Of a DNA stretch of 42,918 nt, positions 30,632 to 38,196 are shown one piece after another (position 1 is the first letter of the stretch; each line of letters starts with the position of its first letter). This DNA comes from Candidatus Firestoneibacteriota bacterium (lineage in GTDB: Bacteria > Oederibacteriota > D2-FULL-39-29), in contig CAIYPD010000067.1 in assembly GCA_903928075.1 (NCBI GenBank), forward strand, positions 1 through 42,918, given 5' to 3'. The translations under genes and the position numbers were made by a program. The notes under the pieces are model-generated. The model worked only from the letters and a program-made list of their open reading frames with translations. It was not told the origin of the DNA and did not search any database.

Positions 30632-31642
30632 TTATTTTTTGTTGAGGACGGGTGAACTCCTAATCCCAAGGTTGCCTTTATTCCCGCTGTTTCCGGTTTT
30701 CCTGTTGTCTGCCTCGAGGAATAGAATTACCGAGAGCCTGTGGGTGTCCCCCAGATTGCCGGAAGAGGCGTAGGCGTAATCGATTTCATAGCCGAAGACT
30801 CCTTCCAGTAAACCTTTGTAGCCCAAACCAGCCGTGAAATTTCCTATGTCATAACCGATTTTGTAGCCCAGGCGGAAAGCAATTTCTTTTTGGTACCAGA
30901 ATTCGGCGCCAATATTTTCCGTAAGTTTTCCGGTATCAAAAGGAAAATAGGCCGTAACGGCAACGGTGAGATCCTCGGGATCTATAAGTTTGAACTTGTC
31001 CGAAACTCCGCCTCTTGCCGTGAGCGGTAAATTGTCGCCGCTTATTTGCATCCCCAGGTTGGAGAGGGCAGCGCCAAAAAGAAGATTATCGTCCAGCATT
31101 TTAAGACTTACTAGCGCTCCCAGGTCTGCCGCGAAAGCAGAGGCACTGGAGGTGTCAATTGTTTGCAGCGCGTATTTAACCGTAGCGCCGAGTTGAATAT
31201 CTTTACTTAATAAATAACCCGCGCTAACCGCAAAAGCCAGGTCAGAAGGCGTGAAGGAATCTGTAACTGTTCCGATGGAACCGCTCGGGGTTTCGGAAAT
31301 TTTTGCTATGGCACCGTAATTCATATATATGATGTGCGCTCCGAGGACAAGTTGTTTTGAAAACGGGTAAGAGAAAGCAGCGTAGTCATAAGTAGAAGAA
31401 TCCCAATAAAGCATATGGGTTAAAGATAATTCCATGGAATACATATTTGCCAGGCCTGCCGGATTCCAGTAGGAGGCGTCAGCACCCTCGGCGACGGCAA
31501 CGAAGGTTTCGCCCATGCCTGCGGCTCTTGCTGAAGGCGCAATCCTTAGAAAAGGTAGTGCGCTGGAGGCCGCCGGCAACTTTTCAGTGAAGGCGGCAAG
31601 AAGAAGAAAACCCGCGAGAAAAAAATACAAAATCTTTGACAT
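30632..31642 (-). CDS. PorV/PorQ-family outer-membrane barrel protein
   Basis: A 336-residue predicted outer-membrane protein. Residues 1-28 form a signal peptide (charged start, then FFLAGFLLLAAF, cleavage near AASSA). SARAAGMGETFVAVAEGADA and SYWNPAGLANM are the signature of the PorV/PorQ (UPF0164) family, followed by alternating beta strands (LGAHIIYMNYGAI, FRLGYKIGYDIG). The last 20 residues are polar and repetitive in N and G. It implies an outer membrane. Members serve in type IX secretion in Bacteroidota, but this family is much wider, so no secretion role is claimed. AAAGGGG precedes the ATG. Confidence 0.9.
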   Translation of the reverse strand: MSKILYFFLAGFLLLAAFTEKLPAASSALPFLRIAPSARAAGMGETFVAVAEGADASYWNPAGLANMYSMELSLTHMLYWDSSTYDYAAFSYPFSKQLVLGAHIIYMNYGAIAKISETPSGSIGTVTDSFTPSDLAFAVSAGYLLSKDIQLGATVKYALQTIDTSSASAFAADLGALVSLKMLDDNLLFGAALSNLGMQISGDNLPLTARGGVSDKFKLIDPEDLTVAVTAYFPFDTGKLTENIGAEFWYQKEIAFRLGYKIGYDIGNFTAGLGYKGLLEGVFGYEIDYAYASSGNLGDTHRLSVILFLEADNRKTGNSGNKGNLGIRSSPVLNKK

Positions 31643-31916: not shown

Positions 31917-34514
31917 TTGAAGAAAACCTTTAAAATACTTGGGCTTGTTGCCGGCAGCGCGGCAGCACTGGTTTTAATTCTCGCTCTTGTAATTTCTTTT
32001 CTGATTCCCTGGGATAAAGTAAAAGATAAGCTGGTGGAAAAGGCTTCGCAGGAACTAAAAAGGGAAGTAAAAATAGAAAGCCTGTCCTTTGGTTTATTTA
32101 AAGGCATAGAACTTAAAGGTTTTTCTGTGTGCAACAGCGCCGGGTTTTCCGCAGGGAATTTTATTTCCGCGGAGTCCGCAGTTTTGAAATATGATTTTTG
32201 GGCACTTTTCAGAAAACAGGTAAAACTTACTAAAATTGAACTCGTAAAACCCTACATTCTTATAGAAAAAGGGAGGAAGGAGAAATACAATTTTTCCGAC
32301 CTGCTGGAAAATAATGCAAAAATTCCCGGAACAGCTGCGGTAGTACCGGGTAAAAGTACAGAGCTGCCGCTTGAATTCTCCATTTCACAATTCGCCCTTA
32401 TTGACGGAACCGTAAAATACAGCGACAAAAGCGGCTCGACCGTTTCTGTAATCGAGGTAAATAAAATTTTTATTTCGGTCTCCGGTCTTTCCCTGGAATC
32501 TGTGAAGCCTTTTTATGTAAAAGCTTCCGCAGGTATAATCTACAACAATGTACCGCTGGACCTGGCTTTTGACGGGACTATGGAATTGAAGTATAAGGAA
32601 CAGTTGTTTAAAGCTACAAGACTCTTTTTCCGGATACCCGGGGCCGGTATAGACCTTATCGCAAATCTTGAACTCGAAAAATTCCTTGAAAATCCGAAGT
32701 TCAGGCTTGATGCGGATGTTCAGCTTAACGGCGAAAAAATGCTTAAACTTGCGGGGGCACTGGCAGCTAAAGAACAAAAGGCGCTTTTAAATCAGTTCGC
32801 CCTGACCGGGAATGCTTCTTTGAAGTTTATACTCGCAGGAAATATGGTAAAGACACCAAAAGCGTATGAACTTAAGGCCTCGGGCTCGGGATCGGCGGAT
32901 GTTACAGGAATGGGGATAAAATACAGTACTAATTTTGCCAAGCCGGCAAAACATAACTTTACGCTGGATTATAAATTGGAGATAGCCGGAGAAAAAGTCA
33001 ACCTGGACGCCGGGGTGAAGCTGAAGGATTCTCAATTTGCAGCCCGGATTGAAGTTGTTGGTTTTGAGGCGCCTTTAATTACCGCTAAATTAGACGGGGA
33101 GGCCGGTATTGCCGAGATTTATACTTTTTTGCCCGTTATGGAAGGTTTTGAGGCGTCGGGAAAAGTAAAGCTTGCCGGAAATCTAAAGGTTCCGGTTAAG
33201 AAAGATTACTTTGTAGATTACAAGGGGATTGTTATTGCTATCAAGGGGCAGATCTTTGATTTTGGAACCAAAAATAGCAGTTTTAATTATGGAATCTCAA
33301 AACTAAATGCCGTTCTGAGTTTAACAGAAAAGAGAATGGAACTTACGGACTTAACATTTTTAAGCGGTACCTCGCCTTTTAACGGGACACTTTCTGCAGC
33401 CAATTTCAATCTCGAAACTATGACCGAATGGAAAACAAAATTTACCGGCGAGGTGAAATTTTCGTTAGCCTGCCGCAAATTCCTGATAGACGAGCTAATG
33501 GACGCAATGCCCGAGAAAAAAGCGGGTGCGATTTTCGGCAAGGAAAAAACTGCCACAGGCACAACGGGCGGGAAGGTTGAGCCCAATCCCGGCTTTACCG
33601 ACGGGGAACTGGCGGAATATATAAACTATATAAATCCGGGGCTCCGCGTTGACGGCAAAGCTCTTCTTAACGAGGTTGTTTACAAAAAAGTTAAACTCTC
33701 CGAGGTTTCGTCGGCTGTTAAACTGGCGGATAGAAATGTTTTTCTGGACAGCGGGCTGACTGCTTACAACGGCACCCTTAAAAGTGTTGTAAAAATTGAC
33801 CTTAATACTAGGGGGCTCGGATATGAACTTAAAGCCGATGCCGCCGGCATTGAGTCAGGAAGTTTTATAAACGGATTGATAGACTCCTTTTTGAAACCTG
33901 ATGCAGGCGGGGAATTAAAGGATAAAATTTACGGTAGTGCCCTTGGTAGTTTGGAGCTGAAAGGTGCCGGGGCGAATAAGAAGTCGTTTAAAAAGAACCT
34001 TACGGCAAAACTCTCCTACAAGATGATTAATGGTAAGCTTAAGAATTGGAAGATCCTGGGAGATGCTCTGGCGGCTCTGAAACTGAACCGTACCGAGGAA
34101 ATTAATTTCCGGGAATTTACCGGGAAGGTCAGCGCGGCGAACCAGAAAGCGGTCATAGAGGAGTTCAGGATTATTTGTGATGATATGCGTTACTCTATTG
34201 CCGGCGAAGTGAATTATGACCGGGATCTGGAGAGCACTTTGAATTTAAAATTCTTAAATGACCTCGCACCCAATGCGGCAAAACAGATGGGAGATCTCGG
34301 CCGGTACGGCTCCGATGAAAACGGCTGGTTTCCGGTGGATTTTATCCTGACCGGCACCCTTCTTAGCCCGAACCTGCCCGCACCAATTTTAGAACGCTCA
34401 CAAAGAAACCTGGAAAATAAACTAAAAAAGAAGGCCGAAGAGGAATTGAAAAACAAAACCGAAGACCTGAAAGAAAAGGGTATGAATCTACTTAAGGGGC
34501 TTTTTGGAAAGTGA
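31917..34514 (+). CDS. AsmA-family envelope protein
   Basis: A large (about 865-residue) inner-membrane-anchored protein. One transmembrane helix (about 8-30, LGLVAGSAAALVLILALVIS) is followed by the AsmA-type N-terminal block (VKIESLSFGLFKGIELKG, then KIELVKPYILIEKG). Beta-rich segments of the AsmA/chorein-like fold fill the rest, and the C-terminus is a K/E-rich amphipathic helix. AsmA-family proteins bridge the periplasm and move lipids to the outer membrane. The TTG at 31917 is preferred because AGGGAG is at the right distance; GTG 31911 overlaps that site. It heads a PAP2-DUF5693-csaB operon. Confidence 0.85.
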   Translation: MKKTFKILGLVAGSAAALVLILALVISFLIPWDKVKDKLVEKASQELKREVKIESLSFGLFKGIELKGFSVCNSAGFSAGNFISAESAVLKYDFWALFRKQVKLTKIELVKPYILIEKGRKEKYNFSDLLENNAKIPGTAAVVPGKSTELPLEFSISQFALIDGTVKYSDKSGSTVSVIEVNKIFISVSGLSLESVKPFYVKASAGIIYNNVPLDLAFDGTMELKYKEQLFKATRLFFRIPGAGIDLIANLELEKFLENPKFRLDADVQLNGEKMLKLAGALAAKEQKALLNQFALTGNASLKFILAGNMVKTPKAYELKASGSGSADVTGMGIKYSTNFAKPAKHNFTLDYKLEIAGEKVNLDAGVKLKDSQFAARIEVVGFEAPLITAKLDGEAGIAEIYTFLPVMEGFEASGKVKLAGNLKVPVKKDYFVDYKGIVIAIKGQIFDFGTKNSSFNYGISKLNAVLSLTEKRMELTDLTFLSGTSPFNGTLSAANFNLETMTEWKTKFTGEVKFSLACRKFLIDELMDAMPEKKAGAIFGKEKTATGTTGGKVEPNPGFTDGELAEYINYINPGLRVDGKALLNEVVYKKVKLSEVSSAVKLADRNVFLDSGLTAYNGTLKSVVKIDLNTRGLGYELKADAAGIESGSFINGLIDSFLKPDAGGELKDKIYGSALGSLELKGAGANKKSFKKNLTAKLSYKMINGKLKNWKILGDALAALKLNRTEEINFREFTGKVSAANQKAVIEEFRIICDDMRYSIAGEVNYDRDLESTLNLKFLNDLAPNAAKQMGDLGRYGSDENGWFPVDFILTGTLLSPNLPAPILERSQRNLENKLKKKAEEELKNKTEDLKEKGMNLLKGLFGK

Positions 34515-34521
34515 GAAAATA

Positions 34522-35133
34522 ATGGAAGAGTTAATAAAAAATATTCTGGGATGGGATATACGCGCCTTTTATTTTTTGAATAAAAGTCTGATGAACCCGG
34601 TTTTTGATGTTATTATGCCGGTAATTACCAATGAAGCCATCATCCTCGTGCCGGTAATCTTAGTCGCTTTATATTTTCTAATTAAAGGCAGCAAACGGAC
34701 CCGGATAGCTATTATCTGTATGATAGTGGCTGTTTTGCTAGCGGACGCCGTTGCCTACCGGCTGATTAAACCATATTTCGGAAGGCTTAGACCCTGCGAT
34801 GTTCTTCCGGGGGTGCACATTCTGGCTCAAGCCGGTAAATACTCGTTTCCTTCCAATCATGCCGCCAATATGATGGCGCTTTCCGTGATTACCCTTTTCT
34901 TTTACCGCAGGTACGGGTGGTTGATTTTCAGCATCGCTTTAATTGTCGGCTATTCCCGCATTTATGTCGGAGTGCATTATCCGCTGGATGTGCTTTCTGG
35001 TTTTGTCCTGGGCGGGGTTACGGCTTTACTTGTGCTCCTGGTCTATAATGGTATCGAATTGCAAAAAAGTTCAAAAAAAGAAGCGCCGGAAAACGAAAGT
35101 AAAAAACAAAAAAAGAAAAAGGGGGCTCTTTGA
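34522..35133 (+). CDS. PAP2-family membrane phosphatase
   Basis: A 203-residue lipid phosphatase with about five membrane helices. All three catalytic motifs are present: KPYFGRLRP (Lys83 to Arg90), PSNH (110-113, with N in place of G) and SRIYVGVHYPLD (145-156, His152, Asp156). BcrC-type members recycle undecaprenyl pyrophosphate to the monophosphate lipid carrier. A K-rich tail (about 180-203) follows. It lies eight bases after the AsmA gene and four before the next. A role in undecaprenyl recycling for the envelope polymer is inferred. Confidence 0.88.
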   Translation: MEELIKNILGWDIRAFYFLNKSLMNPVFDVIMPVITNEAIILVPVILVALYFLIKGSKRTRIAIICMIVAVLLADAVAYRLIKPYFGRLRPCDVLPGVHILAQAGKYSFPSNHAANMMALSVITLFFYRRYGWLIFSIALIVGYSRIYVGVHYPLDVLSGFVLGGVTALLVLLVYNGIELQKSSKKEAPENESKKQKKKKGAL

Positions 35134-35137
35134 CCCG

Positions 35138-36454
35138 ATGAAGAGTTTCAGGTTTGTTTTATTCCTGCTAGTTTCCGCTTTACTTCTGCTTCTATGCGTT
35201 TCTTTTGTTCAACTAAAAAAAAGGTATGCTCTGGAAAAGTACAAAGTTACCTGCCTTGCAGTCAGTCTTAAAGATTACAAAGAGGGAGGCACAGCAGTTT
35301 ATTATGTTCTGACTTTTGAAGAGGCGCTTGCTCTTGAAAACCAAAAAATAGCAGGGATACCACTGGTCGAAATAAAAAAAGGCGAGGATGTCAGGAAAAT
35401 AAAAAATAAAAAAGCCGTGCTTTTTTTTAAGAACAATGTAATCGGTGAGCCGGCGGTGGTGCGCGAGGAGAATTTTCGCGTAGCCTCTATGGAATTTGAA
35501 AAGCCCTCAGGCTTTGAACTAATCCCGGTGGACCGAATCCTGACCCTGCATTCCATTTTGGACAAGGACCTTCAAAATTATAATGAAGAGGAGACCATTA
35601 AAAGATATGTTCGGGCGGTGCTGGAAAGAAAAATAAACATTCTTTATCTTAAGAATCCCGCATATCTGGAAAAACTTGCAATGGCCCTTCCCAAGCGCGG
35701 GATGATATTAGCGGTTGAAGGGAATAATCCGTATCAACTAAAAGGTATAGGTTTCATAAAAAATGTAGCGGTTAAAAAATCTATGGCTTTTATTTTAGCT
35801 CTGTTTCTGCCTCTTTTTGGTTTTTTTTCGGCGCTAAGACTTAAGAATGTTTCGGCCCAGTTTGCGCTTATTAGTGCTTTTTCTCTGGCCGCCGCGTTTA
35901 TAATCGCCGCACTTTTATCGGAAACTGTTTTCATGCTGAAAATTGAGCAGTTCGCGGGAGTTAAGGCGGCCTTGCTTTTACCTCCGCTTGCGGTGTTTTT
36001 CATTCTGGCCCGGGATAATAAAAAACTTTTTACGGGCAAAGTGTTTATTTTACTCTCGGCCGCGGGACTTTCACTTCTGGTTCTTCTGGTGGTGGCAAGA
36101 AGCGGTAATTATTCCCTGCCGCTTTTTCCTTATGAAAAAGAATTAAGAGACTGGTTTGAGAAGGTCTTCTATGCCCGGCCGCGGTTCAAAGAATATTTGG
36201 TGGGTCATCCGGCTTTACTTCTTGGCCTTTATATTTATAACCGCGCGCGCTCTGTGGCTAATAGACAAGCGGAGCTGGTACCGGCCGTATTTTTACTGGC
36301 ACTCGGGATGCTGGGCCAAACTTCGTTGATCAATACTTTTTGCCACGCCCACTCTGATCTGGGCTTGTCCTTGCTCCGGACGGTTTTTGGACTTTTTATA
36401 GGAATTTTACTGGGAGGAATGCTTATATTATGCAGGAAAATCGCAAAAAAGTAG
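35138..36454 (+). CDS. DUF5693-like polytopic membrane protein
   Basis: This 438-residue protein has an N-terminal membrane helix (about 4-22), a soluble extracytoplasmic domain (about 25-215) and a C-terminal set of eight or so hydrophobic segments. The end, TSLINTFCHAHSDLGLSLLR, matches what I recall of the DUF5693 family, whose gene often lies next to csaB in Firmicutes. The function is unknown; transport or processing of the pyruvylated polymer is a guess from the neighbour. ATG 35138 begins four bases after the PAP2 stop. Its end overlaps csaB by 25 bases. Confidence 0.75.
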   Translation: MKSFRFVLFLLVSALLLLLCVSFVQLKKRYALEKYKVTCLAVSLKDYKEGGTAVYYVLTFEEALALENQKIAGIPLVEIKKGEDVRKIKNKKAVLFFKNNVIGEPAVVREENFRVASMEFEKPSGFELIPVDRILTLHSILDKDLQNYNEEETIKRYVRAVLERKINILYLKNPAYLEKLAMALPKRGMILAVEGNNPYQLKGIGFIKNVAVKKSMAFILALFLPLFGFFSALRLKNVSAQFALISAFSLAAAFIIAALLSETVFMLKIEQFAGVKAALLLPPLAVFFILARDNKKLFTGKVFILLSAAGLSLLVLLVVARSGNYSLPLFPYEKELRDWFEKVFYARPRFKEYLVGHPALLLGLYIYNRARSVANRQAELVPAVFLLALGMLGQTSLINTFCHAHSDLGLSLLRTVFGLFIGILLGGMLILCRKIAKK

Positions 36455-37434
36455 TCATCTTCGGGTATTTTGGTTTTAAAAACAGGGGTGATGAGCTGAT
36501 ACTCTTATCTCTGGTGGCCAACCTGAAAGAACACGCTGAACTAACGGTGCTTTCCAAGAGGCCGAAAGAAACTGCTGAGGAACTTGGGGTTGCGGCCAAA
36601 AACCGCTGGAATCCTTTTGCGGTTCTTCTCTCTATATTAAATTCTGATATTTTGCTCGGGGGCGGCGGCGGTTTATTCCAGAATAAAACCAGCACCCGGA
36701 GCCTTTATTATTATCTGTCACTGGTTGTAATGGCAAAAATATTTATGAAAAGGGTGGTCCTTTTTTCGCAGGGGATAGGACCGGTTACCGGAAAATGGCC
36801 GCTATATTTTACGCGGTTGGTTTTAAATCTTGCAGATGTCCTTACCGTCCGCGACCCGGGCTCTTACGAAGAACTAAAAAAAATCGGGTTAAATAAAAAG
36901 ACGGTAATCTCTGCGGACGCAGTTTTTGGCCTGGATTTTTCGCCTTACATTAAAGAGAAGAAAACGGGGGCCCGGGTGGGGGTAACGCTCCGGCGCTTTA
37001 AAAATTACGGCTCGTATGTGGACGGCATCCGGGAGATTGAGGAACAGTTGAAAGACAGAGAAAATTTAAATTTTATTTTTTATCCTTTTCATCTTCCGGA
37101 AGATAATGTTATCGGAGGCGAGATACGGATAAAATCCCGGCTTACGGACCTGCTTGAAGAGTTTTCAAATCTTGACCTGGTTGTGGGCGCCAGATATCAC
37201 AGCCTGCTCCTGGCTTACGCTCTTAATAAACCTTTTATAGGGATAAATGTTGACACAAAAATAAAGTATTTCTGTGAAAGCAGCGGTATGCCTTGCCTGG
37301 AACTGAATGAAAATACATTCAAAAACAATCTGAAAAGTAGTATAATCAATCTGATAGATAAAAAACCGGAGTTTGACCCAAAGGAAGCCGGACGCAAGGT
37401 AAAGGAATCTTTTTCCCTCATTTTTGAGGATTGA
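36430..37434 (+). CDS. csaB: Polysaccharide pyruvyl transferase
   Basis: CsaB adds a pyruvate ketal from phosphoenolpyruvate to wall-linked polysaccharide, creating the ligand for SLH domains. The protein (334 residues) starts VVIFGYFGFKNRGDELILL, contains DILLGGGGGLFQNKTSTRS (about 74-92), FSQGIGPVTG, VLTVRDPGSYEELKKIG, and late VVGARYHSLLLAYALNKPFI, all hallmarks of the family. GGAGGA precedes the ATG. It sits after the DUF5693 gene, its usual neighbour. Its stop lies at the edge of a MITE-like inverted-repeat element. No SLH-domain protein gene is in the window. Confidence 0.92.
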   Translation: MQENRKKVVIFGYFGFKNRGDELILLSLVANLKEHAELTVLSKRPKETAEELGVAAKNRWNPFAVLLSILNSDILLGGGGGLFQNKTSTRSLYYYLSLVVMAKIFMKRVVLFSQGIGPVTGKWPLYFTRLVLNLADVLTVRDPGSYEELKKIGLNKKTVISADAVFGLDFSPYIKEKKTGARVGVTLRRFKNYGSYVDGIREIEEQLKDRENLNFIFYPFHLPEDNVIGGEIRIKSRLTDLLEEFSNLDLVVGARYHSLLLAYALNKPFIGINVDTKIKYFCESSGMPCLELNENTFKNNLKSSIINLIDKKPEFDPKEAGRKVKESFSLIFED

Positions 37435-37587: not shown

Positions 37588-38196
37588 ATGCTCTTAAAAG
37601 CTCTTCTGGCTCTGACTCTGGCGTTGACTGCGGCGCCTGCCGCGGAATACATAGATAGCCTGACAGGAAAGAATGAAACGGGTGTTTTTGCCGGGTGGGA
37701 AACCCTTTCCGGGAACTGGAAACAGACCGAGAGTTTTCTTGCGGGGAGTTCAAGCGGCGGTGATGGGTTGCTTCTATATAAGAAGAAAGTATTTACGGAC
37801 TTTATACTGGAATGCAAAGTAAGAGTGGAGAGCCGGGAAGGCAGTCTGGTTTTTCGCGCCGTTGACAGGCAGAATCTCTATATTCTCGTTTTTAATCCCA
37901 AGGTAAATCCGGAGGATCAGGGAAGTATTCTTCTTATACGCCGGGTCAAGGGACGGGAAACCTATTTTGCAGGCAGTGAGCAATACATACGATTGAAAGA
38001 GTGGGTGACGCTCAAAGTTGCCTGTGAAGGGAAAAAAATTGAGATTTATGTTAACGGTAATTTGACCGTTTCCGTTGAAGACCCCAATTTTGAGTCCGGT
38101 TTCGTGGGCCTCCGTGTTTTCGGGGATTTTTTTTATGGTTGTAACGCCGGCTTTAAGGATTTTTTGGTCAAAGCCGCAGAGGAAAAGAAAAAATAA
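37588..38196 (+). CDS. Secreted DUF1080/LamG-like beta-sandwich protein
   Basis: A 202-residue protein with signal peptide (1-19, LLKALLALTLALTAAPAAE). The mature part resembles the concanavalin-A-like fold of DUF1080 proteins: GTWETLSGNWK-like start (AGWETLSGNWKQTE), FTDFILECKVRVESREGSLVF, and KKIEIYVNGNLTVSVEDPNF then GFVGLRVFG. Such domains bind or act on carbohydrate. No catalytic residue can be named. AAAAGGAAAG precedes the ATG. It is followed after one base by a small membrane protein gene, suggesting a unit. Confidence 0.75.
   Translation: MLLKALLALTLALTAAPAAEYIDSLTGKNETGVFAGWETLSGNWKQTESFLAGSSSGGDGLLLYKKKVFTDFILECKVRVESREGSLVFRAVDRQNLYILVFNPKVNPEDQGSILLIRRVKGRETYFAGSEQYIRLKEWVTLKVACEGKKIEIYVNGNLTVSVEDPNFESGFVGLRVFGDFFYGCNAGFKDFLVKAAEEKKK

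Follow-up and report, generated by a model that had tools for sequence, protein, structure and literature searches.

The window, our name for the whole 42,918-nucleotide stretch of Candidatus Firestoneibacteriota DNA that was analysed, carries a csaB operon from a pathway that probably makes a wall-bound, pyruvylated polymer in an uncultured LPS-type diderm, where the polymer would be used without SLH-domain proteins. CsaB is widely taken as a marker for SLH proteins, and SLH is, to our knowledge, the only domain that grips pyruvate-tagged wall polymer. The marker rule fails here in a coherent lineage: the gene set spanning ManNAc transfer through wall ligation was kept and co-inherited, and the SLH receptor is gone. 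The genome from which the window was taken (2.72 Mb in 148 contigs) is 98% complete.

The preliminary description had placed a four-gene operon, AsmA-PAP2-DUF5693-csaB, at 31917-37434. The operon was confirmed at these coordinates, with all genes on the + strand and tightly packed. The features, together with the neighbouring barrel gene, are:

30632..31642, - strand, PorV/UPF0164-family outer-membrane barrel (NCBIfam PorV_fam, 172 bits; cut-off 90)
31911/31917..34514, + strand, AsmA/DUF748-family protein (Pfam DUF748, 79.6 bits, cut-off 50; AsmA, 52.7 bits, cut-off 30)
34522..35133, + strand, PAP2-family phosphatase (Pfam PAP2, 78.2 bits)
35138..36454, + strand, DUF5693 membrane protein, 438 aa (Pfam PF18949, 192 bits)
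36430..37434, + strand, CsaB polysaccharide pyruvyl transferase, 334 aa (TIGR03609, 248.1 bits; equivalog cut-off 213.1)

The AsmA and PAP2 genes are separated by 7 bp and the PAP2 and DUF5693 genes by 4 bp, and the DUF5693 and CsaB reading frames overlap by 25 bp. The AsmA gene starts either at GTG 31911, giving 867 aa, or at TTG 31917, which has the better ribosome site (AGGGAG ~5 bases upstream). Its product also matches GspN and TIGR03545 more weakly. The protein has an N-terminal membrane anchor followed by a long periplasmic repeat and, judged from its sequence, is of the bridge-like lipid-transfer type. It shares the anchor and the AsmA/DUF748 match with the AsmA-like bridge proteins (AsmA, TamB, YhdP, DUF748) but differs from them in lying within a csaB operon. 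The connection between AsmA lipid transport and csaB that had been proposed is a real gene linkage, but one seen only in the window's order. The models nearest to the PAP2 protein in NCBIfam are undecaprenyl-diphosphatases, with scores under their cut-offs; it is probably an undecaprenyl-pyrophosphate phosphatase that recycles the carrier lipid. The PorV-family barrel gene is divergent from the operon and occupies the same site beside it in both families of the order.

The gene order is conserved in relatives, as the preliminary description had asked to be checked. Each of the nine genomes of the order has PAP2-DUF5693-CsaB, and eight have AsmA as well. The PAP2 identity rests on the profile in the window and in locus L063 of a Candidatus Firestonebacteria MAG, and on position and length in the other genomes of the order, all nine having a gene of PAP2 size at that position. 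Across the phylum, DUF5693 and CsaB are adjacent in 14/14 DUF5693-bearing genomes, a count that includes the fragmented genome G017, where DUF5693 is split across two contig ends. The pair is present in Paenibacillus too (L122).

CsaB passes the equivalog cut-off and is the sole pyruvyl transferase in the window's genome. Residues Y14, F16, R148, R207, R306, H308 and K328 of the Paenibacillus alvei CsaB active site were functionally tested or modelled (PMC10435577), and they align with Y13, F16, R141, R188, R255, H257 and K277 of the window protein. All seven are invariant or nearly so in an alignment of 92 sequences. With every checked active-site residue kept, the protein is, as far as its sequence tells, a genuine CsaB, which we infer transfers a pyruvate ketal to the ManNAc of a lipid-linked precursor.

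In the published pathway, a lipid-linked disaccharide made by TagO/TagA is pyruvylated by CsaB, and an LCP ligase is part of the model (PMC6030368). We compared the 14 CsaB-bearing and 31 CsaB-lacking genomes in a sample of 45 from the phylum. DUF5693 was present in 14/14 versus 0/31 (Fisher p=6e-12), the LCP polymer-to-peptidoglycan ligase in 14/14 versus 2/31 (p=7e-10) and WecG/TagA in 13/14 versus 5/31 (p=1e-6); these p-values are uncorrected for ancestry and thus overstate independence. The lone CsaB-bearing genome without WecG (G007) is 86% complete. In the window's genome, the WecG/TagA ManNAc transferase lies at G000:C53:1845-2342 (179 bits) and the LCP ligase at G000:C148:6681-7133 (120 bits). 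Both are encoded outside the operon, and the pathway was thus pieced together from co-occurrence. Each has a conserved setting in the order. The WecG block holds GalU, an LPG-synthase-TM protein, an epimerase, a SIS/PGI-like protein, MetK and a SahH-like protein (GalU, MetK and SahH were named from their sequence, not by profile search). LCP sits in a nadD-yqeK-LCP cluster (nadD and yqeK named by eye) adjoining an S49 peptidase and a large MA-peptidase/PD40 protein.

The Paenibacillus alvei/Bacillus SCWP pyruvylation system (TagO, TagA, CsaB, LCP, SLH proteins) has the CsaB active-site residues, WecG/TagA and LCP in common with the window's genome. It differs in its SLH proteins, which the window's genome lacks, and in its host, which here is an LPS-type diderm. 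Moreover, csaB is partnered there by tagA/tagO, whereas here it lies beside AsmA and PAP2.

The preliminary description had predicted that SLH-domain porins or lipoproteins grip the CsaB-made polymer and thereby tether the outer membrane. CsaB and an outer membrane are indeed both present, and most CsaB-bearing genomes elsewhere do have SLH proteins: the same search was positive in 42/45 genomes carrying a CsaB relative (42/44 for other phyla alone), the three negatives being a Firestonebacteria MAG and two Elusimicrobia. Nevertheless, the window's genome gave no SLH domain at E<=0.001, nor even at E<=10, and none was found in the 14 CsaB-bearing genomes of the phylum, including the nine of the order. 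A genome without any SLH protein is the outcome that the preliminary description had named as refuting; with none in a genome of this completeness, the prediction was rejected, and we regard such a tether as extremely improbable. The domain was found once among the 45 phylum genomes, in G021, which has no CsaB. This hit (G021:C100:2556-2669, L061) is a single domain in a TPR protein and was rejected as evidence for a tether.

In a tree of 92 CsaB domains, the SLH-less CsaBs fell on one side of a split with support 95/85. That side comprised nine domains from the window's order, five from families f4/f5 of the phylum and two from Elusimicrobia; the other held 76 domains, and every genome tested among them had SLH. 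Because the SLH-less CsaBs share one supported side and each tested genome opposite has the domain, its absence is a property of the lineage and not an assembly gap.

That the cell has two membranes was borne out by the PorV-family barrel, by BamA, which every genome of the order has (9/9), by LptF/G and TamB in the window's own genome, and by LpxC, LpxD and OmpH in one genome of the same order. The described outer-membrane tethers are Pal, OmpA, Braun's lipoprotein and OmpM, of which Pal is limited to Gracilicutes, OmpM to diderm Terrabacteria and Braun's lipoprotein to a subset of Proteobacteria (PMC10628300). Our tether search covered SLH, OmpA/Pal and YkuD. Within this search, the loss of Pal- and Braun-type tethers suspected earlier was seen: seven of the nine genomes of the order, the window's genome among them, have no OmpA/Pal C-terminal domain, and YkuD L,D-transpeptidase was absent from the window's genome and present in just one of the nine. 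OmpA/Pal domains occur in 38/45 phylum genomes, and all seven negatives belong to the window's order; three of these, the window's genome among them, are 94-98% complete. Within one genus, the number of OmpA-domain proteins varies from 8 down to 0 (G008, G009 vs G010), which suggests that OmpA/Pal was lost more than once within the order. Since the searched tethers are missing in most of its genomes, how this Gram-negative envelope holds together becomes a direct question. A literature search for Firestonebacteria together with the outer membrane returned only single passing mentions of the phylum.

OmpM/SlpA proteins, which combine an SLH domain with a barrel, are the outer-membrane tethers of Thermus, Deinococcus and Negativicutes. 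The window's genome resembles these systems as a diderm with CsaB and without Pal; having no SLH domain anywhere, it is not a member of them.

The DUF5693 protein was modelled with AlphaFold2 at pLDDT 86.7 (window protein) and 88.3 (a full-length homologue). The models show three parts: a single anchor helix, an alpha/beta domain in the periplasm, and a membrane module of several helices. The window's copy is ~200 residues shorter, within the periplasmic domain. Across 30 sequences from several phyla, R164, R321, G323, E333, R337, R347, P348, R349, K351, H403 and R414 are invariant, and the invariant Arg, Glu, Lys and His residues sit in the membrane module. Comparison with solved structures, by sequence or by fold, gave no significant relative: by fold, the window protein matched at best with E 0.13 and the homologue with E 0.009 at a low TM-score, the homologue's hits being mostly TIM-barrel enzymes. 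Our literature search found no mention of DUF5693. The polymerisation, export or ligation step of the polymer has been called an open question (PMC6030368). The invariant charged residues of the membrane module and the strict pairing with CsaB make DUF5693 a candidate for this missing step, as flippase, polymerase or ligase.

We favour a route in which WecG/TagA, encoded outside the operon, would place ManNAc on an undecaprenyl-linked precursor, to which CsaB, on the cytoplasmic side, would then add a pyruvate ketal taken from PEP. The lipid-linked product may next be exported, polymerised or handed on by DUF5693, the LCP enzyme would join the polymer to peptidoglycan, and PAP2 would recycle the carrier lipid. 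The acidic polymer might be used through an undescribed receptor, possibly an outer-membrane tether protein, or through its charge and control of wall hydrolases. CsaB could instead act in the manner of WcaK on an LPS, capsule or exopolysaccharide glycan, with no wall polymer made. Pyruvate is found on Gram-negative LPS and capsules (PMC6801904), and LPS genes are present here. We consider this unlikely, given that the protein reaches the CsaB equivalog score and just 19.5 bits against the WcaK model (cut-off 399), that it is strictly co-inherited with the LCP wall ligase, and that an O-antigen or capsule cluster is absent beside csaB.

For a wall polymer made by this route, two uses were weighed. 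It may serve cell division or peptidoglycan remodelling, by placing or restraining hydrolases, and not anchoring. Outside the window's order, the DUF5693-CsaB pair adjoins YceG and FtsX/M23/CtpA cell-division genes. The order in f4/f5 is YceG-DUF5693-CsaB-FtsE-FtsX-M23-CtpA, clearest in L050 and L052: YceG lies upstream and FtsX and the EnvC-like M23 protein downstream in these families (L050, L052, L056, L057), with FtsE and CtpA also in L050 and L052. In two Elusimicrobia (L085, L092), DUF5693, CsaB, FtsX and M23 are consecutive or nearly so. These neighbours of SLH-less pairs hint at a role in division. The window's order, however, has no such neighbourhood, its partners being AsmA and PAP2, and we hold the idea only tentatively.

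Equally tentative is the use of the polymer as an outer-membrane anchor, with an outer-membrane protein gripping it through a non-SLH domain yet to be described. The absence of OmpA/Pal and YkuD from most of the order, despite BamA and LPS genes, leaves room for such a tether, and CsaB, DUF5693 and LCP occur in every OmpA-less genome of the phylum. One possible outer-membrane partner of the polymer is the MA-peptidase/PD40 protein beside LCP, which has a barrel-like C-terminus with a weak Omp85 match in several genomes. Against this, 12-19 OmpA domains accompany the same pathway in f4/f5, so replacing Pal is not the polymer's sole purpose. In the fullest version of the anchor, this Firestonebacteria order, having lost the searched tethers (SLH, OmpA/Pal, YkuD), would use an undescribed receptor domain to hold the outer membrane to a pyruvylated wall polymer attached by LCP, and DUF5693 would be a novel membrane enzyme in the pathway; this version must be considered doubtful.

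Several minor observations concern the genes themselves. The LCP-neighbouring protein is 926-964 aa across the order (e.g. L185:2553-5387, + strand) and combines an HExxH MA-peptidase with PD40 beta-propeller repeats. CsaB is fused to WecG/TagA in Candidatus Aquicultor (L130:7977-9743), which links the ManNAc-transfer and pyruvylation steps, while a Clostridiales bacterium has CsaB fused to a GT4 glycosyltransferase (L096:5076-7310); several Clostridia/Oscillospiraceae have CsaB reading frames of similar length to these fusions. Directly 3' of csaB in the window, at 37588-38196 (+ strand), lies a gene for a secreted protein of the 3-keto-disaccharide-hydrolase fold, and ~200-aa reading frames at the matching site in G007 and G010 are candidate homologues.
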